Assembly (NCBI RefSeq): GCF_000283655.1
Contig: NC_016586.1
Coordinates: 139,001-203,000 of the forward strand
DNA from: Azospirillum lipoferum 4B
GTDB taxonomy: Bacteria > Pseudomonadota > Alphaproteobacteria > Azospirillales > Azospirillaceae
Length of the DNA: 64,000 nt
Direction of reading: 5' to 3'
The notes under the pieces were generated by a model. It ran no database searches. It saw nothing but the letters and a program-made list of their open reading frames with translations, and had not been told where the DNA came from. Positions 1,032-45,561 of the stretch are shown piece by piece. Each line of letters starts with the position of its first letter. Position 1 is the stretch's first letter. The position numbers and the translations under genes are program-made.

Positions 1032-1189
1032 TACAAGTGATGCCGATACACAGGGGCTGAAGGCGGAATTGCCTGTATCGAGCGCATTCGCGCCGATCCC
1101 TCCCGGCCCCGCAATGGTCCCGCGCTCTCCGGGTGGGCGGCTTTGCAGATCGCAAGCGGATGCCTTCAATCCAAATCGGAGACGCTGCC

Positions 1190-2851: not shown

Positions 2852-2859
2852 GAGTGGAT

Positions 2860-9200: not shown

Positions 9201-11783
9201 CTCGTTGCCTTCGCCACCGCCGTCACGGCCTCGCATCGTCTCCACGCGCTGCCGGATCTGCCCGAGGTGGTCGATGCCGCGGCGGGACAGCTCGTCGCCG
9301 GGCTGGACATGGCCAAGGTCTCCGCGCTCGCCGCCAGCATCGAACGGGTTTCTCTGCTGTCGATGGCGGCGGCGCTCGACGGTCAGGGCGTCTTCTCCGG
9401 CCCTGGACCGGGGCCGTCTGCCGATGAGGTGCTTCGCGCCTGCGCGGTCAGCCCGCGCAACCGCAGGCTGATCCGGCGCTGGCTGCGCGCCCTTGTCCGT
9501 GAAGGGTTTCTGGCCTGCGACGAGACCGGCCGCCATCGTCGGCTTCGGCCGGTCGATCGCGGCGAAATCGACGGGCTCTGGTCGCGGATCGAGGATCTGG
9601 CGCGGGACGTCGATTGGGGCGGCGAGGTTCTCCGCTATGTCCGGTCGAGCCAGGAGGTTCTCGGCGGGCTGATGTGCGACGAGGTCGATCCTCTGCATCT
9701 TCTGTTCCCGGAAGGGGAAACCATCGTCGCCGAGGCGGCCTACCGGAACAATCTGGTGAGCCGGCACATGAACGGTCTGGTCTGCGCGGTCGTCCGTCAT
9801 ATCGCCCTGAGCCGGAAGGCGGGCGGCACGGGCGGCGGCATCAGGCTTCTCGAAGCCGGGGCCGGCGTCGGCGGAACCAGCATGGAGCTTATCCCCCGCC
9901 TGGACGGCTGCGGTGTCGAGTACCATTTCACCGACGTTTCCCAGTATTTCCTGAACGCGGCGGAAAGCCGGCTGGGCGCATTCCCCTGGGTGCGGTTCGG
10001 GCTGTTCGACATCAATGCCGATCCGATCGCCCAGGGCATCGAGCCGAATACGGTGGATGTGATCCTGTGCGCCAATGTGCTGCACAATTCCCGCGATGTC
10101 GCCGACGTCCTGCGGCGGCTGCGGGAGATCCTGGCGCCCGGCGGCTGGCTGGTCTTCATCGAGGCCACGTCCGACAGCTATCAGATCATGTCGTCGATGG
10201 AGTTCAAGGAAGGGCTCACCGACTTCGAGGATTGCCGCCGCGCCCTCGACACCACCTTCCTGTCCTGCGGCCAGTGGGAGGATCAACTGCGGCTGGCCGG
10301 TGCTGCGACCGTCCTGCGTTTTCCGGGCGACGGCGGCGCGATGTCCGATGTCGGTCAGCATGTCTTCGCGGCCCAGTTCAAACCCGACCGGATGGCGATC
10401 CCGGCGGCGGAGCTTCGCCGGCATGCAAGCGAACGGCTGCCCGAACACATGGTTCCTGCGGAAATCCATATTCTCGACAGCTTGCCGGTGACGGAAAACG
10501 GAAAGATCGACCGCAAGGCGCTGGCCGGCTTGGCGCCGAAATCCCGGCGGACCGCGGCGGCTGCCGGATCGATGCCGCGGGACGATCTCGAACGGGAGAT
10601 CGCCGCCGTCTGGGCCTCGGTTCTGCGGCTGGAGTCCGTCGGCATCGACCAGAACTTCTTCGATCTCGGGGGAGATTCTCTGCTGGTGGCGCAGGTCGTC
10701 GGCCGGCTGCGTGAATGCTTGCCCAAGGCAGCCGGGCTGGAGTGGGACGTGCTGTTGCGGCGGCTGCTCAATCAGCCGACGGTGGCGGCATTGGCGGATC
10801 TGCTGCGCGGCGCCGGCGGGCCGGCGGGCGATGGCTTGTCGCTGATCGAACTGAGGCAGGGCGATGGCAAGGGGCCCACGCTGCTGTTCGTCCATGACGG
10901 CAGCGGAACCATCGTACCGTACCGGTCCCTGCTCGACCGTCCGGACGGCAACGTCCGTCGCATCCTGGGACTTGCGATCCAGGATCCGGCGCCCTTCCTG
11001 GCGATGGATCCCGCCTGCGCCATCTCCGAATTGGCGGACGGTCATGTCGGCCGCATCGTGACCGCCCTGTCACCGGGCGAACGGCTCCATATCGTCGGCT
11101 ATTGCCTGGGCGGTCTGCTGGCGACGGAGATCGCACAGCGGCTGGCGCAGCGCGGAATAGCGGTGGAGCGGCTGAGCGTCATCAGCAGCTATCGGGTGCC
11201 TTTCCTCATCGAGGACGATATTCTTGCCGAATATGTCTTCGCCCGCGTCATGCGCGCCGATCCGGCCGTTCTCGGCTATCCGGCGGACGAGGCCGGGATG
11301 CGGCGGCTGATCGGCGATGTGCTGGCCGAGACCCCCGGCCGGGTCGGTCCGGGCTCGCTGGAACGGGCGGCGGCATCCCGCGGCGGGGATGCGGCGTCGG
11401 CGCTGCTGATCCTGGCCAGCCGCGGGCAGGATGAGCGGTTGGAGGCCATCGCGCGGCATATGCGCCACGCCGGAACCGATCTCGCTTCCCACGAGCGGGT
11501 GAAATCCCAGTATGAGCTGATCAGGCACAGCCTGGCTGCCGTCGCCCGGCACGAGGGACGGCCATATTCCGGTGACATGACCTTCATCCGGCAAACCGGC
11601 GAGGTCCAGGTCCTTCCAGGCATGCACGACGACATGAGCGCCTATTGGGCGGCCCTGTGCTCCGGCCGGCTGCGCATCGCCGATGTTCCAGGCGATCATT
11701 TCAGCTGCCTGTCGCCACCGAATGTCGGTGCCGTCGCCGCCGCTCTCGGCCTCGACAAGCGGGAGCCGGGCGATGGCCGGTGA
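6294..11783 (+). CDS. pchF: NRPS PchF-like: Cy-A(Cys)-MT-PCP-TE
   Basis: An 1829-residue synthetase. A short N-terminal docking-like segment (1-60) is followed by a cyclisation domain (about 65-500, DLLVCDFQS). The adenylation domain has FDLSVFD, LWNSVP and LSGDWIP, fitting cysteine. An embedded SAM-dependent methyltransferase at about 1040-1370 (LLEAGAGVGGTS near 1184) splits A8 (near 935) from A10 (GKIDRK near 1402). A carrier domain (GGDSLL near 1460) and a C-terminal thioesterase (about 1530-1829) complete it. By analogy with PchF it adds and cyclises the second Cys, N-methylates the reduced ring and releases the siderophore. The thioesterase nucleophile elbow reads GYCLGG, so Cys1604 replaces the usual Ser. 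The start overlaps the pchE stop (ATGATGA) and is preceded by AAGGA. Confidence 0.92.
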   Translation: MMIHQLVMELKDAGVDLWEENGALRYRAPAGAMSAERLERLRQGKAAVLDYLAANDASSVTPDREHLHEPFPLTDLQSAYLMGRGDAFDLGGVACHGYLEFEFAALDVARLQTAWRSLIARHDMLRAIVSPDGSQRILADVPAYVIEVTDARGRAEAGNPPAVEGFRSALSHRKAATDRWPLIELKATLEDRRATLHVSIDLLVCDFQSARLLLGQLSAAYFDGAAGSPPAISFRDHVLAERRRKEDARFQRDQGYWLQRIESLPPAPALPAGTGGAAPRFSRKSFVLHETDFQALGAHAGRHDIGVSPALLTAYAEAIGRWSAQSAFTLSLTTARRETAHPEIDAVVGDFSSVELLGVTLDPQRSFAEQARALQEQLWADLDHPNFSGIDVLRELARRRGRDAALFPVAFTSAIAGGSECRAALFPGAKQSFGITQTPQVAIDCQIGPGEEGLTVNWDIRDGAVPDDVIQPMFEAFEALVRSLCRDATAWTAPAAIDLPSDQRVRRAGVNGVTRPLPTGLLQDPLFEQAAKAPERIAVIDLQHTDRGPVQREITYGELAGRADAVAATLRRSGCAPGDLVAVAMDKGIDQIVAVLGVLRAGAAYLPLDLGQPRARRDVILTAASVTHMLTHSDIALRLEPPMTVDHVIAVDRIETTGHDGAVTDLAAVTDLAYVIFTSGSTGTPKGVMIDHRGARNTIDDINERFAVGAADRVFGLANLGFDLSVFDIFGVLGAGGTLVLPDPSRRSDPSHWAERLTACGVTLWNSVPAQLEMLTDYLRGEPGHRPRSLRLAMLSGDWIPVSLPARIRHFLPDLELIGLGGATEASIWSIFHRIGTVPPEWKSIPYGKPLANQTFHILDEALRPCPDQVAGELYIGGHGLALGYLGDREKTDERFFRHPLTGERLYRTGDFGRYLSDGSIEFLGRQDLQVKIRGHRIEIAEVEAALADHPDVAGAAVLVQGEDNRDRRLVAFATAVTASHRLHALPDLPEVVDAAAGQLVAGLDMAKVSALAASIERVSLLSMAAALDGQGVFSGPGPGPSADEVLRACAVSPRNRRLIRRWLRALVREGFLACDETGRHRRLRPVDRGEIDGLWSRIEDLARDVDWGGEVLRYVRSSQEVLGGLMCDEVDPLHLLFPEGETIVAEAAYRNNLVSRHMNGLVCAVVRHIALSRKAGGTGGGIRLLEAGAGVGGTSMELIPRLDGCGVEYHFTDVSQYFLNAAESRLGAFPWVRFGLFDINADPIAQGIEPNTVDVILCANVLHNSRDVADVLRRLREILAPGGWLVFIEATSDSYQIMSSMEFKEGLTDFEDCRRALDTTFLSCGQWEDQLRLAGAATVLRFPGDGGAMSDVGQHVFAAQFKPDRMAIPAAELRRHASERLPEHMVPAEIHILDSLPVTENGKIDRKALAGLAPKSRRTAAAAGSMPRDDLEREIAAVWASVLRLESVGIDQNFFDLGGDSLLVAQVVGRLRECLPKAAGLEWDVLLRRLLNQPTVAALADLLRGAGGPAGDGLSLIELRQGDGKGPTLLFVHDGSGTIVPYRSLLDRPDGNVRRILGLAIQDPAPFLAMDPACAISELADGHVGRIVTALSPGERLHIVGYCLGGLLATEIAQRLAQRGIAVERLSVISSYRVPFLIEDDILAEYVFARVMRADPAVLGYPADEAGMRRLIGDVLAETPGRVGPGSLERAAASRGGDAASALLILASRGQDERLEAIARHMRHAGTDLASHERVKSQYELIRHSLAAVARHEGRPYSGDMTFIRQTGEVQVLPGMHDDMSAYWAALCSGRLRIADVPGDHFSCLSPPNVGAVAAALGLDKREPGDGR

Positions 11784-12909
11784 ACCGACGGTCGGACTCC
11801 TGGGGGGATCGGGAGCTGTCGGGCGCGGCGTTCTGCGCGCCCTTGCCGGCACCGTCCGGCTGCGGGTCGGCGGGCGCGACCGGAAGCGGGCGGAGCGGGC
11901 TCTGGCGGAGGAGGCGGATGGGCACGGCGAGATCCACGTGGTCGACCCGCAAGACGGCGACGCGCTCGCCCGCTTTTGCGACGGCTGCGATGCGGTCGTC
12001 AACTGCGCCGGGCCAAGCTGCCGCCTTCTGGATGCCGTCGCGCTGGCGGCGCTGACGGCCGGTGCCCATTATGTGGATCCGGGCGGAGACGATCCGCTGC
12101 ATCGCCGCATCGTCCACCACGATTGGCGGGGACGATCCGCGGTGGTGTCGGCGGGCATGCTTCCCGGATTGTCGGGGCTTCTGCCGCTCGATCTGGTCGG
12201 GGAGTTCGACAGCATCGATCGCGTGACCGGCTATGCGGGGGGAATCGAGCGCTTCTCCCCCGCCGGGGCCGAGGATTTCCTGGCCAGCCTGTCGAACGGC
12301 TTCGGCTGGGGCGGCATGTGCGTCCGGGCCGGCGATCTGCGGCCGTCCCCGGCACCGCATCCCGATCCGGTCAGGCTGCCCCTCTCGCGCACTCCGGCCG
12401 AAGCGCGGCCTTACGTCAGCAGCGAGTTCCTGCGGCTCTGCCGGCGGCTCGCGGTGGATGGGGACTGGTACAATGTCTTTCCCGGGCGCCACACGGTCGA
12501 TTTCCTTCGCCGTTTCCAAGCCGGGCAAGCCGGGGGCGGTCCCCCCGAGACGGTGGATGCGGGGGTGGATGCGGCGGCGGTCGCGGGACTGATCGGCGCC
12601 AGCGCTCTGGACGTGGCGGGACGGTCGCCGGAGCAGCTCCTGGTCATCGAAGCGACAGGCCTGCGCTCCGGCCGTCCTGCGGTGCGCAGCATCGCCGTCC
12701 GTGCCGGCTCCGGTGCGGCGCTGACGGGCGGAGTCGCGGCATGCGCGGTGCTGGCGGTGCTGGAGGGCGCGATCCCGGACGGGGTCCATCATGCCGCAGA
12801 CATTCTGCCGGTGCGGACGGTGCTGTCCCGGATCGGGATGTGGTGGCCTGATTGCCGGATCCTGAGATCGGATGCCGCCGCGGTCGCCGTGGACGAGGGA
12901 GCGTTATGA
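11773..12909 (+). CDS. pchK: Thiazoline reductase, PchK-like (saccharopine-dehydrogenase fold)
   Basis: A 378-residue protein with an N-terminal NAD(P)-binding Rossmann motif (VGLLGGSGAVGRGVLRAL, residues 6-23). Further motifs of saccharopine-reductase-like proteins follow: VVNCAGP near 76 and AGAHYVDPGGD near 96. No PchG/Irp3 (Gfo/Idh) pattern is evident. Position and fold suggest the NADPH-dependent reductase that converts the second thiazoline to thiazolidine before N-methylation. In Pseudomonas protegens that enantio-pyochelin step is done by PchK, encoded between pchF and pchC exactly as here. ATG 11773 overlaps the pchF stop by 11 bases, implying translational coupling. The assignment rests mainly on fold and position, so the symbol is less certain than for its neighbours. 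Confidence 0.78.
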   Translation: MAGEPTVGLLGGSGAVGRGVLRALAGTVRLRVGGRDRKRAERALAEEADGHGEIHVVDPQDGDALARFCDGCDAVVNCAGPSCRLLDAVALAALTAGAHYVDPGGDDPLHRRIVHHDWRGRSAVVSAGMLPGLSGLLPLDLVGEFDSIDRVTGYAGGIERFSPAGAEDFLASLSNGFGWGGMCVRAGDLRPSPAPHPDPVRLPLSRTPAEARPYVSSEFLRLCRRLAVDGDWYNVFPGRHTVDFLRRFQAGQAGGGPPETVDAGVDAAAVAGLIGASALDVAGRSPEQLLVIEATGLRSGRPAVRSIAVRAGSGAALTGGVAACAVLAVLEGAIPDGVHHAADILPVRTVLSRIGMWWPDCRILRSDAAAVAVDEGAL

Positions 12910-13712
12910 AACGCGGGAACGTTATGAACGGCGCAAGCTCCGGCATCGGGGGGGACTGGCTCAGAGTCCATCGGCGGAGCCCTGCCGCTCCCCTCCAACT
13001 CGCGTGCTTTCCCCATGCCGGCGGTGGCGCCAGCTTTTTCCGGCGTTGGGCCGACATCCTGCCGGCGGAGGTCGAACTGGTTGCCGTGCAGTATCCCGGC
13101 CGCGAAGACCGCATCGACGACGCGCTCATCCCGGAAATCGGCGAACTTGCACGGACGGCGGCCGATGCCCTGCGGAACGGCGTTCGCAGAAGGATCGCCC
13201 TGTTCGGGCACAGCATGGGCGCGACCCTGGCATTCGAGACGGCCCGCCTGCTGGAGCGGTCGGGCATCGCCGTTTCCCATCTCTTCCTTTCCGGTCAAAC
13301 CCCGCCGCACCGCCATCGCGCGACGCATTTCCACCTGCAATCCGACGAGGATCTGCTGGACGAGGTCCGGCGGCTTGCCGCCACACCGATGGAAATCTTC
13401 GACATCGCCGAAATCCGTCAGCTTCTGCTGCCGGTCATTCGCAGCGACTACCGGGCGATAGAAACCTATCGGGCGGACGATACGGGGCGCCTGCTCTGTC
13501 CGATCACGGTCATGCTGGCGGATGCGGATACCGAAGTGAGCCTGGACGAAGCCGGCGGCTGGGCACGCCACAGCCACGGCCGAACGACGATACGGACTTT
13601 CACCGGCAGCCATTTCTACCTCGTAGAGCGCTGGCGGGATGTGGTGGCGGCGATCCTGGCCGATCTCGGCTGTGCCCATCCACCGTCTTCCGGATGGCCG
13701 TCCACACCGTGA
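12906..13712 (+). CDS. pchC: Type II thioesterase (NRPS proof-reading)
   Basis: A 268-residue alpha/beta hydrolase of the GrsT/PchC family. CFPHAGGG near residue 37 forms the oxyanion region. GHSMGATLAFE near 99 carries the nucleophile Ser. A late Asp in MLADADTEV and a His in GSHFYL complete the triad. It should hydrolyse wrong or stalled acyl groups from the carrier domains of PchE and PchF. ATG 12906 overlaps the previous stop (TTATGA). A second in-frame ATG six codons later is an alternative start. Confidence 0.9.
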   Translation: MKRGNVMNGASSGIGGDWLRVHRRSPAAPLQLACFPHAGGGASFFRRWADILPAEVELVAVQYPGREDRIDDALIPEIGELARTAADALRNGVRRRIALFGHSMGATLAFETARLLERSGIAVSHLFLSGQTPPHRHRATHFHLQSDEDLLDEVRRLAATPMEIFDIAEIRQLLLPVIRSDYRAIETYRADDTGRLLCPITVMLADADTEVSLDEAGGWARHSHGRTTIRTFTGSHFYLVERWRDVVAAILADLGCAHPPSSGWPSTP

Positions 13713-13767
13713 CCCGAGGGCTTGGCGGCCGTTGCCCGCCAAGCGCGATCCATAAGGAGTGTTGAGC

Positions 13768-14070
13768 ATGAAGAGTCCGGAGCAATGCGCGGATCTCCAG
13801 GATGTCCGGACGGGCATCGACACCATCGACCGCCAGATCGTCACCCTGCTGGGTGAACGCCTGCGGTATGTTCATGCCGCCGCCGCCTTCAAACCGACGG
13901 TGGAAAGCATCCCGGCGCCGGAGCGGGTGGCGGCGATGATGGTCGAACGCCGGAGCTGGGCCGTGGAGGTCGGCCTCCCGCCGGACTTCGTCGCGGGTTT
14001 GTTCGCGAAGATCACCGATTGGTACATCGCGACACAGACCGCCTATTGGCGCGCCAGGCGCGACGCGTGA
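13768..14070 (+). CDS. pchB: Isochorismate pyruvate lyase
   Basis: A 100-residue protein of the chorismate mutase type II (AroQ) fold, the size of PchB. The pattern VRTGIDTIDRQIVTLLGER at residues 12-30 and ERVAAMMVERR near 49 is typical. It converts isochorismate to salicylate and pyruvate. ATG 13768 is preceded by AAGGAG at 13754-13759 with an 8-base spacer; the upstream in-frame start at 13759 overlaps that site. It is followed 13 bases later by pchA. Confidence 0.92.
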   Translation: MKSPEQCADLQDVRTGIDTIDRQIVTLLGERLRYVHAAAAFKPTVESIPAPERVAAMMVERRSWAVEVGLPPDFVAGLFAKITDWYIATQTAYWRARRDA

Positions 14071-14083
14071 CGGAGGATACGCA

Positions 14084-15535
14084 ATGCTGTCCGATTTTCT
14101 CGCGATCCGTCTGCGTGAAGCCTTGCAGGGCGCACGACGGCAGGCTGAGCGGCATGGCGAAACGGTGCTGGCCACGGCGAGCGCGCCGGTCGAACCGAGC
14201 GCGTTCGACCTGCCGTCGCTCTTCGCGTCTCGTCCGAAACGGTTGCCGGCCTTCCTTTGGCTGGGAACCGGGGATCACGGCATGGTCGGCCTGGATGTCG
14301 CCTGGGAAGCCGTCGCCCAAGGGGAGGAGCGGTTTTCCGCGATCGCGGCGGCATGGCGGCGGACCGCGAAAAACGCCGTCGTGTCCGGAGAGGAGGGGCC
14401 GGTCGCCCTCGGAGGCTTCCGGTTCGACCCGCGACGGCCGACTTCGGAGTTGTGGCGGGGCTTTCCCGATGCGGTGCTGAGCGTGCCGCGCTTCGTCCTG
14501 CGTTTGCGGCATGGCCGGGGCCAAGTGATCGTCAGCGACGCGGTCGACCATGCCACGGACATCGAAGCCCGCTTCACCGCATTGTTGGATGCATGGTCCC
14601 GCTTGCGGGAATTGAACAGGAATCCGGATTCCACCGAAAGCGCCATGCCGGAACTGCGCGAGAGACCCGGGGATCGACCGGCCTGGACGGCGCTGGTCGA
14701 TCGGGCGGTCGCGACCATCGGGCGCGGGGAACTGGAAAAGGTGGTCGTGGCGCGAACCGTCGATATGACCTTCTCCGCACCGGTTCCGACCGGATCGGTT
14801 CTGGACCGGCTTCGCGATGCGAATCCCAAGGCGAGCGTCTTCGCGTTCGAACGGCATGGCGCCTGTTTTGCCGGCGCCACGCCGGAAACGCTTCTCACCA
14901 TGGAAAACCACGCGTTCCAGACGATGGCGCTGGCGGGCAGCATCGGACGCGGCGCCGATCCGGACGAGGATGGACGGGCGGGAGAGCGGCTTCTGGGCAG
15001 CGCCAAGGACCGGCGGGAGCATCGTCTGGTCGTCGAGACCCTGCGCCGGGCGCTGGAGCCGTTCTGCACGGAGATTCACACGGATGCGGCACCGACCCTG
15101 CACAAACTGCCGCGTGTCCAGCATCTGATGACCCGTTTCGGTGGCAGGGTGCGCGGCGGTACGTCGCTGATCGAACTGGTCGGCAGGCTCCACCCGACAC
15201 CGGCGGTCGGTGGCGTGTCCCTGGAAACGGCGCTCGATTTCCTGCGCCGCCACGAGGATCTCGACCGTGGATGGTACGCCAGCCCGGTTGGATGGATCGA
15301 CACCGACGGAAATGGCGAATTCATGGTCGCCCTGCGGTCGGCACTGATCGACGGACGCCGGGCCACGCTGTTCGCCGGCTGCGGCCTGGTCGCCGGGTCC
15401 GAACCGGACAGTGAATATCGGGAGACCCTGCTGAAATTCGTGACCATGGCGGATGCGCTCGGCCTCAGGGAGCTTGCTGTTCGGGCGGTTCCCGCGCCTC
15501 GAACTCAAACAGGAACTCGGCCTCGGCCATTATGA
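14084..15535 (+). CDS. pchA: Isochorismate synthase with foreign C-terminal tail
   Basis: A 483-residue chorismate-binding enzyme of the PchA/EntC/MenF family. It makes isochorismate from chorismate for PchB. Motifs include ELEKVVVARTVDM near 221, FAGATPETLL near 263, ALAGSIGRG near 283 (substrate and Mg site), the KDRREH motif near 307 and FAGCGLVAGS near 431. It starts at ATG 14084 after GGAGGA. The family-like sequence ends near MADALGL (base 15467). The last 22 residues are Arg/Pro-rich and read out of frame through an IS701-type transposase fragment, so the native C-terminus was probably replaced. The core is complete and the enzyme may still work. Confidence 0.9.
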   Translation: MLSDFLAIRLREALQGARRQAERHGETVLATASAPVEPSAFDLPSLFASRPKRLPAFLWLGTGDHGMVGLDVAWEAVAQGEERFSAIAAAWRRTAKNAVVSGEEGPVALGGFRFDPRRPTSELWRGFPDAVLSVPRFVLRLRHGRGQVIVSDAVDHATDIEARFTALLDAWSRLRELNRNPDSTESAMPELRERPGDRPAWTALVDRAVATIGRGELEKVVVARTVDMTFSAPVPTGSVLDRLRDANPKASVFAFERHGACFAGATPETLLTMENHAFQTMALAGSIGRGADPDEDGRAGERLLGSAKDRREHRLVVETLRRALEPFCTEIHTDAAPTLHKLPRVQHLMTRFGGRVRGGTSLIELVGRLHPTPAVGGVSLETALDFLRRHEDLDRGWYASPVGWIDTDGNGEFMVALRSALIDGRRATLFAGCGLVAGSEPDSEYRETLLKFVTMADALGLRELAVRAVPAPRTQTGTRPRPL

Positions 15536-37225: not shown

Positions 37226-37614
37226 CCGGCTACGGTAGAGCGCAGCATCCTTCACCGTCAAACATATGCGCCGTGCCAGAATACCTTCCACGGCTGCGCT
37301 ATCTGGCAGTCTTCGGAAGAGCCCATTGAGGGGCACGCTCTAACCTCGGCCGGTATGCGGTGCGCGAAACTCGACCGCTTCATGGCCGTTGGAGAATTGC
37401 CGGGAACGAGTGCCGGGAAAAGCGACAAGAAGACCTTGCGCGCCCGCTCTGCCTCCGTCCAAACCTGTGGATCGGCCGCCACGTGAGGATGGATCGTTTA
37501 TCCATGACGCTGCTCATGCCACTCAAGCGCGCGGCGTGGGCCCGGCTGTGACCGTCCAGCATGGCGGCGGTCGCCAGAAGGCGCACCGCCACCCGCTCCG
37601 CCGGGCAGGAAAGG
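37226..37614. other. Intergenic region between two convergent operons
   Basis: A 389-base gap lies between the efflux adaptor stop and the end of the minus-strand conflict-system operon. I see no gene with convincing codon use, no clear hairpin with a T-run, and no insertion-sequence end. Its composition is less GC-rich than the flanks. Confidence 0.5.
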
Positions 37615-37932
37615 TCAGGGCTTCGCCTGAGACTGGCCGACAGTCGGCGGGGCCTTGGGCGAAGGCGGGGAGTCCAGCGGTAGGGACCTTTCCGGCGGCG
37701 TATGCGCCGGCCGATCCGTTCCGCCGGGCGGAGCGGAGACAACGCTGGCGAGGATGGCGGCGGCGAGGAGTGCCGCGGCCAAGCAGGTGAGGAGCAGATC
37801 CCAGGGGCGCCAGTCGAGCGGCGGCGGCACGCGGCGGAATGTAGCAGCCGTCTGCCGTGGCGCCGCAGAATGCGCCGGCCGCCGGTCCCGCATCCAGGCG
37901 ACGATGTCGGTGGGCGGACGCTCCCCGCTCAT
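37615..37932 (-). CDS. Small single-pass membrane protein, last gene of the trypsin-MoxR operon
   Basis: A 105-residue hypothetical protein. A basic, presumably cytoplasmic N-terminus (1-43) precedes one hydrophobic helix (WDLLLTCLAAALLAAAIL, about 44-62) and a Pro-rich tail. ATG 37932 overlaps the stop of the large upstream gene (ATGA), so it is very likely translated with it. I recognise no family. It could be an accessory or immunity-like subunit of the neighbouring membrane protein, which is inference only. Confidence 0.65.
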   Translation of the reverse strand: MSGERPPTDIVAWMRDRRPAHSAAPRQTAATFRRVPPPLDWRPWDLLLTCLAAALLAAAILASVVSAPPGGTDRPAHTPPERSLPLDSPPSPKAPPTVGQSQAKP

Positions 37933-40900
37933 GCCGGCGCCCCCGCCACCGAAGGGACCGCCTTCCTTCGCCAGCCGGCGGCCAGGGCCGCCAGCCAGAG
38001 GGCGGCCAAGCCGTTTACCGAAAGCGCGATGAGGCCCGGATAAGCGAAGCCGATGCCTGTCGCCTCCGCCAGGGATGCCGCCGATGGCCCGCTGCCGAAG
38101 AAAAGGACCAGCGGATCATCCAGTATCCCGCGCTTGTCGAGGGTGATCAGGAGGAAGGCCGTGGAGCCGAGAGCCACGCCCAATACGGTCCTCACCCCAG
38201 CGGATCCATAGCGGAGTCCGGCCAGCGCGGCCATGCCGAATCCCGGCATCAGCAGCATCGTCCTGGTACCGGCAGAGACGGCCTGGCCCGCGGCGCCCAG
38301 CGGCAGCACGAGGTTGGGGAGCAGGAACAGCGCGACCATCATCGTCGGAAATCCCCAGCTCCCGTGCAATTCCGCCGGCCCGGCGTCGAGCGCGTCGCGG
38401 ATCGCCCGCCCGCACAGCAGTCCGGCCACCGCCGCCACGCCCCAGGCCGGCGTCAGAGGAAGCCACAACAGGGACATCTGCAGCCAGGGAAGTTCCGCCG
38501 TCGGACCGACCGGCACCGCCAACGCCGCCACCGACGCCACCACCGACAGGGCCACGCCCACCCCGACGACCCGTAACGGTACGACCAGGGGCAAGGCTGA
38601 GAAACCCACCAGCCCGAAGAGAAACACCGCCAGCGGTCCGGGGCTCCAGCCCAGTGACAGGAACGGCCCCAGGCTGACCGTAACGCCCAATCCCATCGGT
38701 AGCAGCAGAAAGGCCCAAGCCCGCCATGAAAGGCTATCGGCCGTCCGGCAGGAATTCCGGAAGTCGGAATCGGCAACAAGACGCATGAGCAGGAAGGCGG
38801 TGACGAGCAGGCCGGGTTCGAACACGGAGGCAACAGGGCCAACCTGAGTATCGATCAGGAAAAATGGCACGGCCAAACCGATTGCGCGCGCCGCCTGTGA
38901 CCAGGCATGAGTGCTTGCAATCCAAATTGACAGGCCTAGAACAAAATGGCTGAAATTCAACATGGACGAATCATCGATTTTAACCACAATCCCCAATAAA
39001 ATGCTCAAGAAGCAAATCGATGGCAATTTATGATATTTGACACATGATGTAAGTGTTTTTGGATCTTGGCGCTCATGCAACTTCAACAATCTGCGCGTTG
39101 ACGCTATAGCTATTATCGGAAAAATCCATATGATAGAAACCCCGAAAGCTATTCCTAGAATGAGCATATCATCTCTAGATATTTTCAAATTTATGGCGCC
39201 TGTATTTTTGGCAATAGAAATTGCGCTTGTCACAGTGATGTCTGAATTCATCAAATACATAACTGTATAAAAATGCGCAATCACAAGAAAAAATGTAATA
39301 ATCATGCTCGTTGATATATATAAAAAAATGTGCTTTTTCGCCGTTTTATTCGGCATAAAAATGTACAAATAAAAATTGAATAACAAAACAACCGGCAACA
39401 TGAGAAAGGTATCCAAATTGGCATTATAAAATTTGCCATATACAATTAAAAATGCCAAAAATAAGAGAGAAATTACATAACATCTTGACAATCTGCTCAT
39501 AAAATCCCAAACATGTGAAGATATACTCTGTAGAGCTGTCTTTGCAGATAGAGAAAATACTATGACAAAAAAAGCAAAATAGCCAATTTGGATTAATTCT
39601 GAGCTAGCTCCGCTGTAGAGATGATTGATTGCCGAAGATGAATAAGACCACGACATCATTAAATTCAGAGAAATGGCAATCGGCAGCCCATACATGCCGC
39701 GCATTGGGAAAGGGCATCCGATCCCTATAATAAAAATATAAATCGCGGAAATTAAAATCGCTGCCAATCCAATAGCAGAAACTTCAGATATTGTACTTTT
39801 ATCGCTATATGCATAAAGAATAACCGCAAGAAACGATCCCATTATGATAATAATAGGGACAATTAGGAGATTCAGTAGGAACGGATAGCGTTCGTCGATA
39901 AACCACCTGAGGAATCCAAAAAATCTTGCCGACCGCTCCGTGTTGCCGAAAAACAGCAAGGACGAAGAGGTCACCGCCGAGACGAAGATCGGACCACTGT
40001 CGCGATCATCGGCAAACAGGCCCAAGCATGCCAGCACACAGGACGCGATGACGCTCGACCATTGCGTCCAGACGATCCACCGCGGAGCAGTCCCCAGGAC
40101 CCCCCGCAACGAGCTTGTCAGCATCGTCAGGAGGATGAGGCCAAGCACCCACGTCGTCGTCGCGGCCTCGGGCATCCGATCGACAAGTCCGGCGATTCCA
40201 TCCACCAGAGCCCCGGGGTTCCATGCCAGAGCCGCGGAAGTCAACGAAACGGCGGCCAGCAGGCCTGCCTCACTCGGCGATAGGCGCGGGCGGGCTTCCG
40301 CAGGGATGCGATCCGGCATCGCCATCCCCAACTCCTCGACCGGCAAATCATTCAGGAAACGAAGCAGGATCGCTTCCTCCAGATCGGGGGCCTTGCCGCG
40401 GCGCACCAGCTCGTTGATGACGGCGCGTATGCCGGGATCGCGGCGCGGCACCACGGGGAAACGCAGCGTATCCCGCTCGCCCTCCGGTACCGGCTCCAGC
40501 AGTGCCGTCCAGGCGTCACGCACCGCGGCGGCCCGCTCCGGTTGAGTCTGCAAGTCCCGCACCAGTGCCAGCCGGAGCCAGTCCGGAAGCCTGCCCCGGC
40601 GCAGCCAGGGCAGGCGGCAGAGCGAGGCCAGGCGATCCTCGGTCAGCAACGACCGGCCGGCGCCGTCCCGCACGGCATTGCCGACCAGCAGAGTCAGCTT
40701 GGGATGCACGGCGGGAAAGACCGCCAGCGCGGCGAGATACTGCATCCCCTCTGCCCCCAGCGCCGCCCGCAGATCGGCGACCAGAGCAGCAATGTCGGCA
40801 TCGGACGGCGCCCGATCGCTGGTCCAGTTGAACGGCGAACGGGCCAGACGGCGGTCGAGCGCCAGCGGTTCCGGCCCTGCCGGCGTGGCACGGTCGACCG

Positions 40901-42164
40901 GCAGGTCGCTGCGCACTTGCCCGGCCAGATCCCGCAACCCGGTCGGCGAAGCCTCCACCACCAGGAAGCCCTGCCGCATCAAGGCCCGCTCGCGCGGTCC
41001 CCAGGTGCCCTGCGGGGACGGGGTGACGATCGCCGTCACCTCCCATCGCCGCAGATGCTCCACCCACACGCGCTCCGTGCCGGTCGCGGGGTCCGCGAAA
41101 TTGGCGGCGTCGGTCAGCAGCAGCAGGCGGTGGTCGCGGCAGGTCTCCCGCAGCGTCTCCAGGTCGGTCATCGCCTCCGCCCGGCCATCACGTTCGATGC
41201 GCCGGAGGATGCGCGGGTCGCCGCGATAATCGTAGCGGGTGACGTGGATCTGTTCGGCGGAAAGCCTGTCCACCAGCAGTTCCGCCAGCAGCGCCAGATG
41301 GTCGTCCTGGCGGACCCGGTCCACCAGCAGCAGATAGTCGGGCGTGACTGGCCTGTGCGCCTTGACGAGCCTGACGAAGCCGGCCCCCGCCACCGTCGCC
41401 CTGAGGCTGGCGCGGCCGTCCACCTCGTCGGACGCCACCATCCGGTGCCGGCGCAGGTCCCGGAGCGCGGTCCGCACCATGGCGGGCCGGAACAGCGGCT
41501 GATCGCGCACGCTGAGGGCCAGCGCCGCGCGCGGCGCGTCGCGCGGGGCCATCCCTCGCAAAACCGCCGTCCGGCGCCGGCGCCGCATCCACAGGTACGC
41601 GACCGCTGCGGCCAGCGGCAGGATCATCGCCCCTCCCTTGGCCAGCCGGACCTCCAGGTCGGTCAACAATCCCGACCACCAGGGGGGCAGGTCCGGCGTC
41701 GGCTGGGTTATCGCCTCCACGGCCGGCGCCGCAAGCTCGGCCCCTTGGAAGGAGGCCAGGAAGTAGGTGATGCCGCCAGCCAGCAGCAGGACGGCCAGAA
41801 CGAGCCAAATCCACGGCCGCCGCCTGGTGGCGGGTGACGCCTGGCCGGCGTCGCAATCTTCCACCGGCGCCGTCAGCTCCACCGCCGGGGCGGGAGCCAA
41901 CCGGGACCGCTCCAGCCGCGACCGCTCCATCCATTGGTCGAGAAGGTCTGGCAGGCGTTCGCGCTGATCGGGATTGCGGCAGAGAACCGGGCCGAACCAG
42001 CGGGCCGCCTCCCGCCCGTCAGCGGGGAAGATCTCTTGTTCGAGCAGGCGCTGCCGCAGTTCGGCCAGCCGCAGGTCGTCGCCGACGCCGAGCCGGAACC
42101 CCTCGCCGCGCAGGAACGCCGCGAGCGCGATCCCGTCCCCCAGTCCATCGGCCGGCCATTCCAT
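37929..42164 (-). CDS. Giant polytopic membrane protein with degenerate vWA-like domain (conflict-system component)
   Basis: A 1411-residue protein. Residues 1-95 are helical, with LLEQEIFPADGREAARWFGP and LCRNPDQRERLPDLLDQWM resembling N-terminal regions of MoxR/vWA-associated proteins. Two helices near 118-140 and 160-180 follow. A Rossmann-like segment at about 245-400 has DYLLLVDRVRQDDHLALLAE, HRLLLLTDAANFADPATG and WEVTAIVTPSPQGTWG, like a vWA domain but without the DxSxS metal site. A soluble helical part (400-620) precedes roughly 20 further hydrophobic segments (about 640-1405). Bases about 38,900-39,930 are AT-rich (Ile, Lys, Asn and Ser codons), unlike both flanks, yet the frame stays open. 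ATG 42164 follows GGAGAA, 18 bases after the MoxR stop. Role inferred: membrane-acting partner of the MoxR ATPase. Confidence 0.75.
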   Translation of the reverse strand: MEWPADGLGDGIALAAFLRGEGFRLGVGDDLRLAELRQRLLEQEIFPADGREAARWFGPVLCRNPDQRERLPDLLDQWMERSRLERSRLAPAPAVELTAPVEDCDAGQASPATRRRPWIWLVLAVLLLAGGITYFLASFQGAELAAPAVEAITQPTPDLPPWWSGLLTDLEVRLAKGGAMILPLAAAVAYLWMRRRRRTAVLRGMAPRDAPRAALALSVRDQPLFRPAMVRTALRDLRRHRMVASDEVDGRASLRATVAGAGFVRLVKAHRPVTPDYLLLVDRVRQDDHLALLAELLVDRLSAEQIHVTRYDYRGDPRILRRIERDGRAEAMTDLETLRETCRDHRLLLLTDAANFADPATGTERVWVEHLRRWEVTAIVTPSPQGTWGPRERALMRQGFLVVEASPTGLRDLAGQVRSDLPVDRATPAGPEPLALDRRLARSPFNWTSDRAPSDADIAALVADLRAALGAEGMQYLAALAVFPAVHPKLTLLVGNAVRDGAGRSLLTEDRLASLCRLPWLRRGRLPDWLRLALVRDLQTQPERAAAVRDAWTALLEPVPEGERDTLRFPVVPRRDPGIRAVINELVRRGKAPDLEEAILLRFLNDLPVEELGMAMPDRIPAEARPRLSPSEAGLLAAVSLTSAALAWNPGALVDGIAGLVDRMPEAATTTWVLGLILLTMLTSSLRGVLGTAPRWIVWTQWSSVIASCVLACLGLFADDRDSGPIFVSAVTSSSLLFFGNTERSARFFGFLRWFIDERYPFLLNLLIVPIIIIMGSFLAVILYAYSDKSTISEVSAIGLAAILISAIYIFIIGIGCPFPMRGMYGLPIAISLNLMMSWSYSSSAINHLYSGASSELIQIGYFAFFVIVFSLSAKTALQSISSHVWDFMSRLSRCYVISLLFLAFLIVYGKFYNANLDTFLMLPVVLLFNFYLYIFMPNKTAKKHIFLYISTSMIITFFLVIAHFYTVMYLMNSDITVTSAISIAKNTGAINLKISRDDMLILGIAFGVSIIWIFPIIAIASTRRLLKLHERQDPKTLTSCVKYHKLPSICFLSILLGIVVKIDDSSMLNFSHFVLGLSIWIASTHAWSQAARAIGLAVPFFLIDTQVGPVASVFEPGLLVTAFLLMRLVADSDFRNSCRTADSLSWRAWAFLLLPMGLGVTVSLGPFLSLGWSPGPLAVFLFGLVGFSALPLVVPLRVVGVGVALSVVASVAALAVPVGPTAELPWLQMSLLWLPLTPAWGVAAVAGLLCGRAIRDALDAGPAELHGSWGFPTMMVALFLLPNLVLPLGAAGQAVSAGTRTMLLMPGFGMAALAGLRYGSAGVRTVLGVALGSTAFLLITLDKRGILDDPLVLFFGSGPSAASLAEATGIGFAYPGLIALSVNGLAALWLAALAAGWRRKAVPSVAGAPA

Positions 42165-42181
42165 CGACGGTTCTCCCAAGG

Positions 42182-43228
42182 TCAACGCGGCGCGGCGACG
42201 CCAAGCTCGATTTCCGCGCGCTCCAGATCCTCCTGGGTCTTGGCGAGCGCCCGCAGGCTGGCGCGCAGAATGGCGGGCTGCCCGGCCAGTCCGGCGACCG
42301 TTTCGCCGCCGGCCTCCAGGCGGCGGACCATCGTCTCCAGGACGTCGAGCCATGCCAGCAGTTCCGCCGTGCCGGGAGGCCGGCCCAGCCGGTCGCGGAC
42401 GCGCGTGAACAGGGTCATCGCCTCGTTGAACAGCTCCCCGCGCTGTGCGAAAGGAGCAAGCCGCTTGACGACGATGGCACGCCGCCGCTCCGGTCCCGGC
42501 GCCGGGATATGATGATAGACGCAGCGGCGCAGGAACGGCTCCGGCAGGCTTTTCTCGGAGTTGCTGGTGATTACCACGATCGGGCGGTTGGATGGCTCTC
42601 CCTTGACCGTCACCCGCAGTTCGGGAATGTCGAAGCGCATCGCCTCGATCTCCAGCAGCAGGTCGTTGGGCGTGTCGCGCGGCGCCTTGTCCAACTCGTC
42701 GATCAGGACGACCCGGCGGCGGGGCGGCGGATAGTCCCGGGGAAAGAGATCGCCATGACGGGCGACACCGTCGTCGGCCCAGCCGTCGTCCGGACGTATC
42801 AGCTCGCGGTCCGGACCTGCCGAGAACAGGATAGCCTTCCCCAGGGCGTTGAGGGACAGGTAACCGGCTGTCGGTCGGCGGGTCCCGGTCTGGGAGTCGC
42901 GAAACCGGGCGAGATCGTCGAAGCCGTAAAGCAGATCCCGGCCGGTGGTGGTCGACTTGACCGATTGCAGCAGGGGCTCGTCCAGGCCCAGCTGGCGGGC
43001 CAGCCAAAAGGCGAGGCTGGTCTTTCCACAGCCGGGCTCCCCGGTCAGCAGCAGGGGCTGCCCCAGAAGCAGGGCGACGTTGACCGCCGCCGTCAGATCG
43101 GGATCCGGGTCGTAGCCGGCCGGATCCTTGTAGCGTTCGTGGAACGGCGCGGGAAGACGGACCGGGGCCGCCTGATCGGCACGGGGAACGAGCGTGACAT
43201 CCTGTGCGGACGGACTTTCCAGGGTCAT
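42182..43228 (-). CDS. MoxR-type AAA+ ATPase
   Basis: A 348-residue AAA+ protein of the MoxR/RavA clade. Walker A is LLTGEPGCGKTSLAF near residue 58. Walker B is RRVVLIDELDKAPRDTPNDL near 148. Sensor 1 follows in VVITSNSEKSLPEPFLRRC near 192, with an arginine-finger-type pair. A helical lid domain runs to the end. MoxR ATPases remodel or activate vWA-domain partners, and the vWA-like protein is encoded next. ATG 43228 overlaps the trypsin-gene stop (ATGA); the longer frame to 43351 is antisense-like sequence inside the protease gene's frame. Confidence 0.92.
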   Translation of the reverse strand: MTLESPSAQDVTLVPRADQAAPVRLPAPFHERYKDPAGYDPDPDLTAAVNVALLLGQPLLLTGEPGCGKTSLAFWLARQLGLDEPLLQSVKSTTTGRDLLYGFDDLARFRDSQTGTRRPTAGYLSLNALGKAILFSAGPDRELIRPDDGWADDGVARHGDLFPRDYPPPRRRVVLIDELDKAPRDTPNDLLLEIEAMRFDIPELRVTVKGEPSNRPIVVITSNSEKSLPEPFLRRCVYHHIPAPGPERRRAIVVKRLAPFAQRGELFNEAMTLFTRVRDRLGRPPGTAELLAWLDVLETMVRRLEAGGETVAGLAGQPAILRASLRALAKTQEDLERAEIELGVAAPR

Positions 43229-44730
43229 AGCGGGGACTCCAGCACCTCGGTCAGGTGGTCGCAGAAGGCGCGCATGCTGACTGCGCTGGTCAGCCGTCGC
43301 TCGATGCGCATTCGAAGGAAGTCGATCTGCTCCCGTCGGACCTGTCTGCATCGCGGCCGTATCCGGTCAAGCCAGTCTCGGACGTGGCCATGCTCGATCG
43401 GCGACAGCGGGTCGACCCAGGGCAGGCGGTTGCCGGTAACCGCCTCCTCCAGCACTTGTTGAAGCAAAGGGTCGGGGTCGACCGGGGGAGGCGGCCGCAT
43501 GAAGGGAAGCGGCGGCTTACGCGCCGGCATCTGCTCCCCGGTGATGAGGCACAGAAGCAGCAGCACGGTGTTGCGGCCCGGTAGCGCCGCAAGTTCGCTC
43601 CACAGCCCGAGCCAGGACCGGAGCAACTCGCCGTGGCCCGGCCCCGCCCGCCCGGCGCTGATCCGTGTCCAGAACGCGCGCGGGGCGTCCGGCCGGTCCA
43701 TCGCCTGGCGCAGGGATGCCGCGGTGGCCGCCTCCGGCGGAAGGCACAGCGCGTTCGTCAGGTCGCGGCAAAGCATGTTGCGGAATGCCGCGGCAGCGTC
43801 GATGACCGGCGCCTGGGGCCAATGGATCTCGATGATGGCGTCCCCCGGATCGGTGTCGCGGCCGAGAAAGCGCTGCATCTGGTCCTCGCGCGCCAGCCGT
43901 TCGATGACGCGGGCGTGGTCGTCGTCCGGCTCGCCAGGGATCAGGAACAGCCGCGGCCGGCCATCGGCGGAGCCATGATCGGTCACCGCGGTGACGATCA
44001 TCTCGACCTGGGGGATGCGATCGACGAAGCACACGTTGTACGCGATGCTTTCGGTCAGCCCGGTGGGGAAGGACCCGTCTACCCGTTCCAGGATGGGAGG
44101 GGCCGCCCCGTGACTGCGAAGGCATTCCCGGAAGCCGGCATCGTCACAGAAGGAGGCGACTGAGGTGGCGGTCAGCACCCGACCGGCAAAGTTCGGCGGC
44201 ACGGCTTCCACCACCGCGACGAGCGCATCCTCGACGAACAGGGCGGTTCCGGAGAAGCCTTTCCACCCGATCTCCTGATCGGGAGCGGCGTTGAGCACGT
44301 CCGCATTGAACAGGCCATCCTTGCTGACCCAGGACAAGGCGGCCTGGATCAGCCGGTCCGCATTTCCGTCCTGCCGCCGCTGCGCATCGGGAAAGCCGAT
44401 GCCGTAGCAGCGGTCGGCCCGGTCGTTCAGATCGACCTTGCCGAACCGGACCGGAGCACGCGGAAGACCTGCCACCGGCTCGTCGACCGCCACCAGGGCA
44501 ACGTCGTGCGATGGCGAAACCCAGACGACCCGGGCCGCCAGCAGCTTCGGACCGGTGCCTCCGTTCGCCGGCGCCGTGCCGAGGACGGCGATCTCGCAGG
44601 CGGCGCCACTGAGCTTCGCGACGTGTCGCGCAGTCAGCACCAGCCGGTCCGTGATCAGATAGCCGCTGCCATAGCCGTAGCCGTCGTTCTCTTCCTCGAC
44701 ATAGACTTCGACAACCCTTTCACGCTCCAT
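43225..44730 (-). CDS. Trypsin-like serine protease with C-terminal helical extension
   Basis: A 501-residue protein without a signal peptide, so probably cytoplasmic. Residues 1-205 form a trypsin-like domain with the whole triad: His in GSGYLITDRLVLTARHV (near 36), Asp in VSPSHDVALVAVDE (near 75) and Ser in GWKGFSGTALFVED (near 160). The remaining 300 residues are unlike proteases. FLIPGEPDDDHARVIERLAR near 260 and a long helical C-terminus resemble the effector-associated regions of predicted NTPase conflict systems. The stop overlaps the MoxR start, and a Trypco2 gene precedes it by 29 bases. Inferred role: a protease switched on by the MoxR or membrane component, cutting a self or foreign target. 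HtrA/DegP is excluded by the missing PDZ domains and signal peptide. Confidence 0.88.
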   Translation of the reverse strand: MERERVVEVYVEEENDGYGYGSGYLITDRLVLTARHVAKLSGAACEIAVLGTAPANGGTGPKLLAARVVWVSPSHDVALVAVDEPVAGLPRAPVRFGKVDLNDRADRCYGIGFPDAQRRQDGNADRLIQAALSWVSKDGLFNADVLNAAPDQEIGWKGFSGTALFVEDALVAVVEAVPPNFAGRVLTATSVASFCDDAGFRECLRSHGAAPPILERVDGSFPTGLTESIAYNVCFVDRIPQVEMIVTAVTDHGSADGRPRLFLIPGEPDDDHARVIERLAREDQMQRFLGRDTDPGDAIIEIHWPQAPVIDAAAAFRNMLCRDLTNALCLPPEAATAASLRQAMDRPDAPRAFWTRISAGRAGPGHGELLRSWLGLWSELAALPGRNTVLLLLCLITGEQMPARKPPLPFMRPPPPVDPDPLLQQVLEEAVTGNRLPWVDPLSPIEHGHVRDWLDRIRPRCRQVRREQIDFLRMRIERRLTSAVSMRAFCDHLTEVLESPL

Positions 44731-44759
44731 GGCCGAGCTCCCGCACCGTCAGGAACGGT

Positions 44760-45098
44760 TCAGTCGCCCGCACGCGGACGCTTGATGGTCGTGCCGACCA
44801 GCAGCTTGCCCGTCTCGACCGTCCCGCCGGGGGAACGGGGGGTCAGAACCAGCTTCAGCCGCTGAACCTGCTGGTCGCTGACCTTGCCTCCCAGGTTCAC
44901 TTCGGCCCCCTGGCCGAACAACTTGAAGCCGATCTTGCCGCCCCCGGACCCCTCCCGACTGACGATCGCGTTGAACTCCAGCTCCACCGGGCCGAGTTCA
45001 AAGCGCAGGTCCTTCTCCTCGCCTTCCTTCACGGCTTCCATCAACTCGGTGCGTAATGCGCGGATTGCATCCGCCAGAGGGATGAGTGCGTCCGACAT
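44760..45098 (-). CDS. Trypco2 (trypsin-co-occurring) domain protein
   Basis: A 112-residue protein with the pattern of the Trypco2 domain. It opens LIPLADAIRALRTELMEAVK, then LRFELGPVELEFNAIV, a Gly-rich strand region, and QRLKLVLTPR near the end. Trypco2 proteins are named for co-occurrence with trypsin-like proteases in predicted bacterial conflict systems, where they may act as adaptor or sensor. ATG 45098 follows GAGAGGA by 3-4 bases. It is the first gene of the operon Trypco2, protease, MoxR, membrane protein, small membrane protein. Confidence 0.83.
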   Translation of the reverse strand: MSDALIPLADAIRALRTELMEAVKEGEEKDLRFELGPVELEFNAIVSREGSGGGKIGFKLFGQGAEVNLGGKVSDQQVQRLKLVLTPRSPGGTVETGKLLVGTTIKRPRAGD

Positions 45099-45561
45099 GC
45101 TTCCTCTCAGAACATATATGACCTATGTATTCCTACTTATAGGAGATGATCAATCGAAAGCCACAGCAAAATATACCGTTATGCCATTCTGAACACTTTT
45201 TAATTGCTGGTGGTTGCGGCGAGAGAACCGGCAGAGTCGGGAAGTGGGTCCGCCGCCGACCGAGCCCGGCGGCGAAGAGCGGGAGGGCATGTGTGGATGG
45301 CCTCTCCGGCGTAAGTGGGAATTCCGCGTTGACTGGCCGAGAAGGATGCATCCCTTTGTCCGGCCTGTTGTCGCAGCCGCTGGCTGCTGGCGTTGATGAA
45401 TTCCGCGGATCGACGCCCAAATCACCTCATCGGCGCCATCCTCTTGGAGCAGAATGACGGATGGGCCGTTTCACACTGTCCGTCGACCGCTCATATAGTT
45501 CTATATAGAACTTGTTGACCGGAGCATCCATCTGAGACAGGATGGCTGCGGGAGGACATCG
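45099..45561. promoter_or_regulatory. Divergent control region: conflict-system operon / GntR operon
   Basis: A 463-base gap. The side near the Trypco2 gene (45105-45205) is AT-rich. On the minus strand it holds TATAAG (about 45135) and TATATT (about 45170) as candidate -10 elements, but no convincing -35 at normal spacing. The other side carries the GntR operator at 45497-45512. Short ORFs across 45133-45457 look non-coding. Confidence 0.4.
45497..45512. promoter_or_regulatory. GntR/HutC-type operator
   Basis: AGTTCTATATAGAACT is a perfect 16-base palindrome, 49 bases before the GntR start codon. The GT-(N)-CTATATAG-(N)-AC pattern suits the HutC subfamily. It probably mediates autoregulation and control of the downstream genes. 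Confidence 0.8.

Follow-up and report, generated by a model that had tools for sequence, protein, structure and literature searches.

MoxR-vWA ternary systems of the iSTAND class are predicted to comprise a MoxR ATPase, a vWA component with a four-helix N-terminus, N-terminal membrane helices and a variable C-terminus, and an inactive STAND (iSTAND) domain fused to an N-terminal peptidase, with a Trypco protein beside the peptidase where this is a trypsin (PMC7159879; this and the other papers named here are cited from part of their text). In that account, the MoxR-vWA pair is predicted to restructure the complex. The iSTAND systems are computational predictions, and which end senses and which end acts is disputed (PMC7159879 versus PMC10907252): for related systems, the C-terminus of the vWA protein was proposed as the sensor and the peptidase as the effector (PMC10907252, PNAS 2024). 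The EACC2-caspase and TRADD-N systems also combine a constant peptidase part with a variable C-terminus, which may be CHASE2 or multi-transmembrane, and for the EACC2-caspase proteins sensing followed by peptidase activation was proposed (PMC8195603). These systems differ in that a caspase takes the place of trypsin-iSTAND, and a MoxR-vWA motor is not described in the passage concerned. Here we analysed a five-gene operon of Azospirillum lipoferum 4B, at positions 37615–45098 (minus strand) of a 64,000-nucleotide stretch of contig NC_016586.1 (139,001–203,000; 'the window'). The operon resembles the iSTAND systems in the parts listed above, with a putative four-helix N-terminus seen in a structure model, but its vWA component, gene 4, differs from those described in ending with a polytopic module of very large size.

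Polytopic or multi-transmembrane, CHASE, LysM and cyanovirin/CVNH C-termini are unmentioned in the main text of PMC7159879, the Figure 5A of which may list such architectures, and a polytopic C-terminus in MoxR-vWA systems is not described in the text of PMC8195603. As far as we found in the text searched, the membrane-anchored polytopic C-terminus is thus a variant of the predicted iSTAND MoxR-vWA systems without a description in print.

The operon and its vWA component

The five open reading frames (ORFs) encode, in order, Trypco2, trypsin-iSTAND, MoxR, a large membrane protein of 1411 residues and a small one. From gene 1 to gene 5, they are separated by 29 bases, a 4-base overlap, 17 bases and a 4-base overlap. 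The original prediction of a single operon with ATGA overlaps and short gaps is borne out by these coordinates. Its placement among the NTP-dependent conflict systems of the Aravind group also stands and can be narrowed to the iSTAND class. From domain content and gene order, the assignment of the operon as a complete iSTAND-type MoxR-vWA ternary system, probably anchored in the inner membrane, is well supported.

Gene 4 (37929–42164; the mechanical ORF extends to 43007) had no match at E ≤ 1 in Pfam, NCBIfam or PADLOC, and its relatives were found by tblastn and profile search. Profile comparison with hhalign aligned residues 235–417 (40914–41462) to a protein of the CoxE family PF05762 (E = 1.8e-9); the VWA_CoxE model itself was not matched directly in the Pfam search, so that the CoxE kinship comes from profile comparison. 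An AlphaFold2 model, built from 28 sequences (mean confidence, pLDDT, 70.6; pTM 0.37), contained four helices, two long helices and an alpha/beta domain. The four helices form an N-terminal domain at residues 11–89 (41898–42134; block pLDDT about 79–95), where the vWA components of iSTAND systems typically, though not always, have a CoxE-type four-helix domain; it lies outside the hhalign alignment to CoxE, which spans the vWA domain only. Two N-terminal membrane helices with a short loop between them follow (41553–41810), the first (about residues 119–137) seen by hydropathy and the second (within residues 161–204) in the model only; the sequence RRRRR comes after the second. With Foldseek, the two best matches of the model were both to NorQD chain G (E = 0.013 and 0.016, probability 0.97–0.98), values that are not significant alone.

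The metal ion-dependent adhesion site of this vWA domain is degenerate, with D282 (Asp in 17 of 28 aligned rows), D352 (25 of 28) and position 288 (28 of 28). D282 and D352 correspond to the conserved Asp residues that end strands 1 and 4 of the vWA domain in iSTAND systems. The description of the large protein as 'vWA-like' was therefore right, and can be refined to a CoxE-type domain with a degenerate metal site.

The polytopic module, delimited by hydropathy, occupies residues of about 673–1396 (37977–40148) and gave no Pfam match at E ≤ 5. The polytopic membrane part of the original prediction is thereby supported, and no family model recognises it. On the Kyte-Doolittle scale, the whole of gene 4 has 20 hydrophobic peaks at a cut-off of 1.5, one of which (residues 477–495) is probably in the soluble part. 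Residues 601–1411 have 17 peaks with a cut-off of 1.6, and the number drops to 12 with 1.8 and to 8 with 2.0. The 'about 20 membrane helices' first proposed are therefore a hydropathy estimate that falls with stricter cut-offs. Taken together, these comparisons identify gene 4 as the predicted vWA component of an iSTAND-type MoxR-vWA system, in which a CoxE-type vWA domain is followed by a polytopic C-terminus.

The genes upstream complete the set. Gene 1 (44760–45098, minus strand, as for all features of the operon) encodes a 112-residue Trypco2 protein (PF19631, E = 9.3e-25). Gene 2 (43225–44730; 501 residues) is the 'third component', with a trypsin-like domain at residues 21–177 (44200–44670; Trypsin_2, PF13365, E = 1.8e-9, match at residues 21–165). 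The His, Asp and Ser motifs expected of it are present as TARHV (from residue 33), HDVAL (from 75) and WKGFSGTA (from 156). Behind this protease, the original prediction missed an iSTAND domain at residues 236–396 (43543–44025; PF19995, E = 1.1e-7, 32.8 bits against a cut-off of 24). Inspection of the sequence of this protein showed no GxxxxGK[ST] motif. In PADLOC, gene 2 weakly matched two proteases, Avs1b (at E = 1.4e-7) and also RT-Protease_XI, which is read as probably reflecting the common trypsin fold. Gene 3 (42182–43228; 348 residues) encodes a MoxR AAA+ ATPase (AAA_5, PF07728, E = 9.7e-9), in the translation of which Walker A (GEPGCGKT) and Walker B (VVLIDELDK) were found by eye. Its start was placed at the ATG that overlaps the preceding stop as ATGA; the mechanical ORF begins at 43351. 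No match to the VMAP-C domain was found in genes 1–5 (Pfam, E ≤ 1), so that the operon lacks the domain by which VMAP ternary systems are recognised.

Gene 5 (37615–37932; 105 residues) overlaps gene 4 as ATGA and encodes a single hydrophobic helix with a proline-rich tail. Its NCBIfam match is weak (CU044_5270 family, E = 0.0022, far under the cut-off of that model). No relatives were found among the ORFs of the fetched loci or in plasmids. It had been proposed as a constant part of the system, and we now treat it as an optional, unproven one.

A constant core and an interchangeable C-terminus

Searching with gene 4 by tblastn gave three plasmid relatives (Nostoc, Cylindrospermopsis and Haliscomenobacter), which matched residues 57–676 at most, and in all three a MoxR gene preceded the match. 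An alignment of these retrieved 35 further loci, giving 38 vWA-component genes with the three from plasmids. By their titles, 15 of the 35 loci are cyanobacterial, 14 are Beggiatoa- or Thiomargarita-like and six are others. Many of these bacteria are filamentous or colonial. Such hosts fit the published link between iSTAND-type systems and a multicellular habit (PMC7159879).

In the window operon, the MoxR gene lies 17 bases from the vWA-component gene. MoxR was present in the same stretch for 32 of the 38 vWA-component genes, overlapping or at most 21 bases away in 22 cases and at 229–5267 bases in ten. Five of the six remaining genes lie on stretches whose start coincides with a contig end, and begin there at position 1–1112. 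The sixth, L037, is a genuine miss, with 9.4 kb upstream that holds no MoxR. A second sample covered 398 genomes of the phylum, six of which had a relative; one of the six was the genome of the Limobrevibacterium locus L008 described below. MoxR adjoined the relative in four of the other five, and the fifth was cut at a contig end. The survey, which had been proposed as the way in which the linkage might fail, did not undo it.

For loci with both MoxR and vWA genes, the third component was taken as the longest plus-strand ORF of at least 150 residues ending no more than 700 bases upstream of MoxR. This rule gave 26 proteins (none from L008, L015, L018, L020, L027 or L033), and a total of 29 was reached with three added manually, from L004, L008 and the window. 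At E ≤ 0.01, these matched iSTAND (23), caspase (3), CHAT (2), Trypsin_2 (2), VMAP-C (1), EAD2 (1) and EAD8 (1). Other families were also matched, such as Uma2 (2), and may come from unrelated neighbours. The trypsin of L008 fell under the cut-off (Pfam E = 0.12), yet it has all three catalytic motifs. Trypsin as a constant partner, as first proposed, is not upheld by these counts. On domain matches, MoxR, vWA and iSTAND form the constant core, and trypsin with Trypco2 is one peptidase option among several.

Two observations were made on the plasmid loci. In Nostoc edaphicum pNe_1 (L001:5019-7316), the vWA-component gene lies between MoxR and ParA, where the PLSDB gene table lists none. In Cylindrospermopsis (L002:2745-4332), reading of the translations by eye showed repeated QGN/QGD-type stretches in both the third component and its upstream neighbour; these resemble an adaptor or amyloid-like motif common to the two.

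The nearest relative of the operon is that of Limobrevibacterium gyesilva (L008), which has the same four genes. Its vWA component is 46% identical to gene 4 over residues 15–668, and its C-terminus is polytopic and weakly related to that of gene 4 (phmmer E about 1e-9; 26% pairwise identity with many gaps). It differs in being 254 residues shorter and in lacking the AT-rich block described below, and no small gene comparable to gene 5 follows it. The Methylosinus sp. C49 plasmid pMSC49a (L004/L007) has the identical order Trypco2-trypsin-MoxR-vWA, but its vWA component is annotated as SAV_2336 N-terminal domain-related, does not match gene 4 at E 1e-3 and, from a reading of the translation, continues into propeller- and glycosyltransferase-like sequence. 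The Thiohalocapsa PB-PSB1 DGR 9 locus also has trypsin, MoxR and a multi-transmembrane target protein side by side (PMC10907252). This target differs in being diversified by a diversity-generating retroelement (DGR) and in carrying CLec domains, and it is likened to gene 4 by description only.

We then grouped the 38 vWA components by their C-termini. FGS domains were found in ten (L003, L012, L017, L024, L026, L028, L029, L037, L038 and L042), of which L017, L024 and L028 were called by similarity to L012 and L003 by annotation. WD40 was found in five (L013, L015, L021, L027 and L033, the last also with PASTA). Single loci carried GUN4 (L002, by annotation), TPR (L016), CVNH (L011), a sugar transferase (L009), DUF11 with VWA (L010), LysM (L040) or CHASE2 (L025). 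Ten were polytopic (L008, L014, L018, L019, L023, L030, L031, L032, L035 and L036), defined by the crude measure of at least five Kyte-Doolittle peaks at 1.6 beyond the vWA region; L001, with three peaks, was borderline. Five further C-termini could not be classed (L020, L022, L034, L039 and L041), among them three that are either cut or fragments (L034, L039 and L041). In L025 (2277-5849), several membrane helices accompany the sensory domain CHASE2 in the C-terminus.

The polytopic C-termini are themselves of several kinds. Those of L008, L018, L019, L030, L031 and L032 had no Pfam match above the curated cut-off; L014, L023, L035 and L036 were called polytopic by similarity to these six. 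When the first 45 residues were removed, phmmer sorted them into four groups, between which no match reached E < 0.1: L019/L023/L032/L036, L018/L030/L035, L014/L031, and L008 paired with gene 4 (E = 9e-10). The C-termini of L001, L022 and L025 matched none of the four in phmmer. Judged by this domain content, the C-terminus of the vWA components is interchangeable across relatives.

LysM is a peptidoglycan binder. In L018 (1511-4561), it sits in the vWA component's loop that joins the first N-terminal membrane helix to the second, and in L040 it is located beyond the third membrane helix. Both positions would fit a cytoplasmic vWA domain with loops that face the envelope.

Genome setting and the AT-rich block of gene 4

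A stretch of gene 4 that went unremarked in the original prediction differs sharply in composition from the rest. GC content at fourfold-degenerate sites is 0.91 in codons 1–600, 0.78 in codons 601–735, 0.44 in codons 736–1090 and 0.81 in codons 1091–1411. The block of codons 736–1090 (38895–39959) has an overall GC content of 0.364 and is hydrophobic, like the sequence on both sides. In FUSC and SLC13, two membrane genes nearby, the fourfold-site values are 0.83 and 0.94, and the AT-richness of the block is therefore not explained by hydrophobicity alone. The vWA gene of L008 shows no such dip, with GC at third codon positions (GC3) of 0.75–0.92 along its whole length. The 355-codon block remains open in the frame of gene 4, whereas none of 2000 shuffles did so and the other five frames carry 12–31 stops. 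Searches with the block returned no relative. It is apparently an in-frame module of foreign origin, absent from the nearest relative, L008. At the 3′ ends of the vWA genes of L018 and L030, GC3 climbs from about 0.2–0.4 to 0.56–0.79 in the last two 100-codon windows, which on composition is a mosaic opposite in direction to that of gene 4.

Over longer distances, the window DNA is 91% identical to Azospirillum sp. B510 (5.3 kb), 89% to A. oryzae (4.3 kb) and 86% to another B510 plasmid (3.1 kb). On the left of the operon, matches to relatives at 89–90% extend to about 37347, with short pieces on to about 37515; on the right, matches at about 85–88% resume at 45477–45491. The unshared stretch therefore barely exceeds the operon in length. 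The family of G052 was covered by 82 genomes, which from DNA similarity are probably Azospirillum kin; the left flank was matched in 21 of them and the right flank in six. The flanks lie on different contigs in G699, G713 and G720, which match both at full length, and likewise in G692, where the right matches are partial. In no relative examined were both flanks seen joined as they are around the operon. As judged from these alignments, the operon fills a junction between segments that lie on different contigs in relatives.

The distribution of the operon is sporadic. The sole relative of gene 4 among 385 genomes from the class of G001 was in G001 itself, and with a stand-alone CoxE match set aside, the 82 family genomes had none.

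The neighbours of the operon that were examined are FUSC, HlyD and GntR genes (Pfam) and, by homology to B510, an amidohydrolase and an SLC13 permease. HlyD is followed by a ligase gene in A. oryzae, and a gene for an MFS transporter precedes GntR in B510. A 131-base piece of the window (37357–37487) matches A. oryzae (L006) some 1.7 kb farther along, where this ligase gene ends. The piece is likely the remnant of a deletion beside the operon, the intervening stretch having apparently been lost in the window. Ten large ORFs of the window were also scanned. Of the eight with matches, four belong to a nonribosomal peptide synthetase (NRPS) cluster, and the others matched a chemoreceptor, a histidine kinase, an outer-membrane efflux protein and a DctP solute-binding protein; the other two could not be assigned and may not be genes. 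The cluster, at 1133–15535, is siderophore-like: besides two NRPS genes, one of which includes methyltransferase and thioesterase parts, it has an AMP-binding ligase and a chorismate-binding enzyme, and we take it to be reminiscent of those for pyochelin or yersiniabactin.

Direction of the signal

The contents of the C-terminal slot are mostly ligand-binding or sensory, and the slot looks sensory on this basis. CHASE2, LysM, PASTA, CVNH, FGS and GUN4 would fit sensing better than an effector role, and for this reason we prefer a signal that runs from a membrane or envelope sensor through vWA and MoxR to the protease over one that runs from the protease to a membrane effector. We put the probability of this explanation, the best overall, at about 0.5. 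In such a scheme, the polytopic C-terminus of gene 4 would sense an event at the membrane or envelope, which might come from a phage (its entry, or one of its membrane proteins), from a ligand or from a change in lipids. The signal would then reach the CoxE-type vWA domain, presumably in the cytoplasm. The MoxR hexamer would remodel the complex through ATP hydrolysis, as NorQ does on NorD, and thereby set a threshold. This would release or activate the trypsin domain, which the iSTAND protein would hold, with Trypco2 as a possible regulator or docking partner of that protein, and cleavage of one or more cell proteins could lead to growth arrest or cell death. The MoxR motor of NorQD strains a linker of its vWA partner (PMC13036017), which by analogy is a plausible route for the ATP-gating of a membrane event.

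The opposite direction, in which iSTAND and protease sense and release and the C-terminus of gene 4 is the effector, was taken in the original prediction and follows Kaur 2020. It keeps a substantial share of our belief, though clearly less than the sensor-to-protease scheme. In the domain grammar of PMC7159879, domains C-terminal to vWA are effectors, and TIR and caspase-like C-termini are named; the multi-transmembrane variable modules of the EACC2 sister system might form membrane pores (PMC8195603), a suggestion that favours the membrane-disrupting part of the claim. The better conservation of the N-terminal part of gene 4 than of its C-terminus in the comparison with L008 is expected of effectors and of sensors too. 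The direction is weakened by the slot contents of relatives, mostly non-catalytic binding or sensory modules with CHASE2 among them, and the 12–17 predicted helices are many for a pore-former compared with the two-transmembrane SLATT effector of PMC7159879. Besides these published views, several of our own results weigh against the sensor-to-protease scheme or the assignments beneath it. The C-terminus of L042 also holds a caspase-like stretch and that of L009 is the sugar transferase, and a 'ligand-binding' module could also be an effector aimed at the cell wall or nucleic acid. None of the five further relatives in the second sample is polytopic. The DxSxS serines are missing from the vWA domain of gene 4, Foldseek gave no match of its model at E 0.001, and the structure prediction of the polytopic part reached a pLDDT of 34, its fold not being predictable. 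A location in a defence island, named in the original prediction as something to check, was not supported: among the ten large window ORFs, the sole PADLOC match at E ≤ 1e-5 was mad2 (E = 1.6e-10), which is the methyltransferase part of the NRPS. An experimental test of an iSTAND ternary system was not among the matches listed in the open-licence PMC literature.

NorQD and CoxDE act on metalloenzymes. They share the vWA type and the logic of motor and co-chaperone with the operon, and the nearest sequence and fold links of the gene 4 vWA domain are CoxE and NorD. The operon could by this token serve maturation or repair, with MoxR-vWA remodelling a membrane protein that in this case is fused to it, and quality control falling to the protease. 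We consider this unlikely: NorQD, which acts on a metalloenzyme (PMC13036017), and CoxDE lack protease, iSTAND and Trypco, Trypco2 and iSTAND are conflict-system domains, no Cox/Nor-type enzyme (CO dehydrogenase or NO reductase) was found among the neighbour genes examined, and the distribution is sporadic (1/385, 6/398 and 0/82 genomes). Slightly less probable still is that the AT-rich block marks a recent insertion or an assembly chimera and that gene 4 is non-functional. The abrupt shift in composition and the lack of a relative of the block would suit such an origin, but the frame is kept at both ends of the block and throughout its 355 codons, and the block is hydrophobic like its surroundings.

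Gene 4 and its polytopic relatives might be a class of modular membrane immune receptors in bacteria, in which a cytoplasmic vWA chassis carries interchangeable multi-helix sensors of at least four unrelated kinds and is wired by MoxR to an inactive-STAND protease; in gene 4, the sensor may have been re-specified recently by the in-frame AT-rich helix block. We advance this fuller picture only tentatively. The mosaic block hints at how such proteins may switch specificity. The operon is compact, with few parts and a membrane-bound variable end, and this makes the dispute over the sensor and effector ends of iSTAND systems testable.

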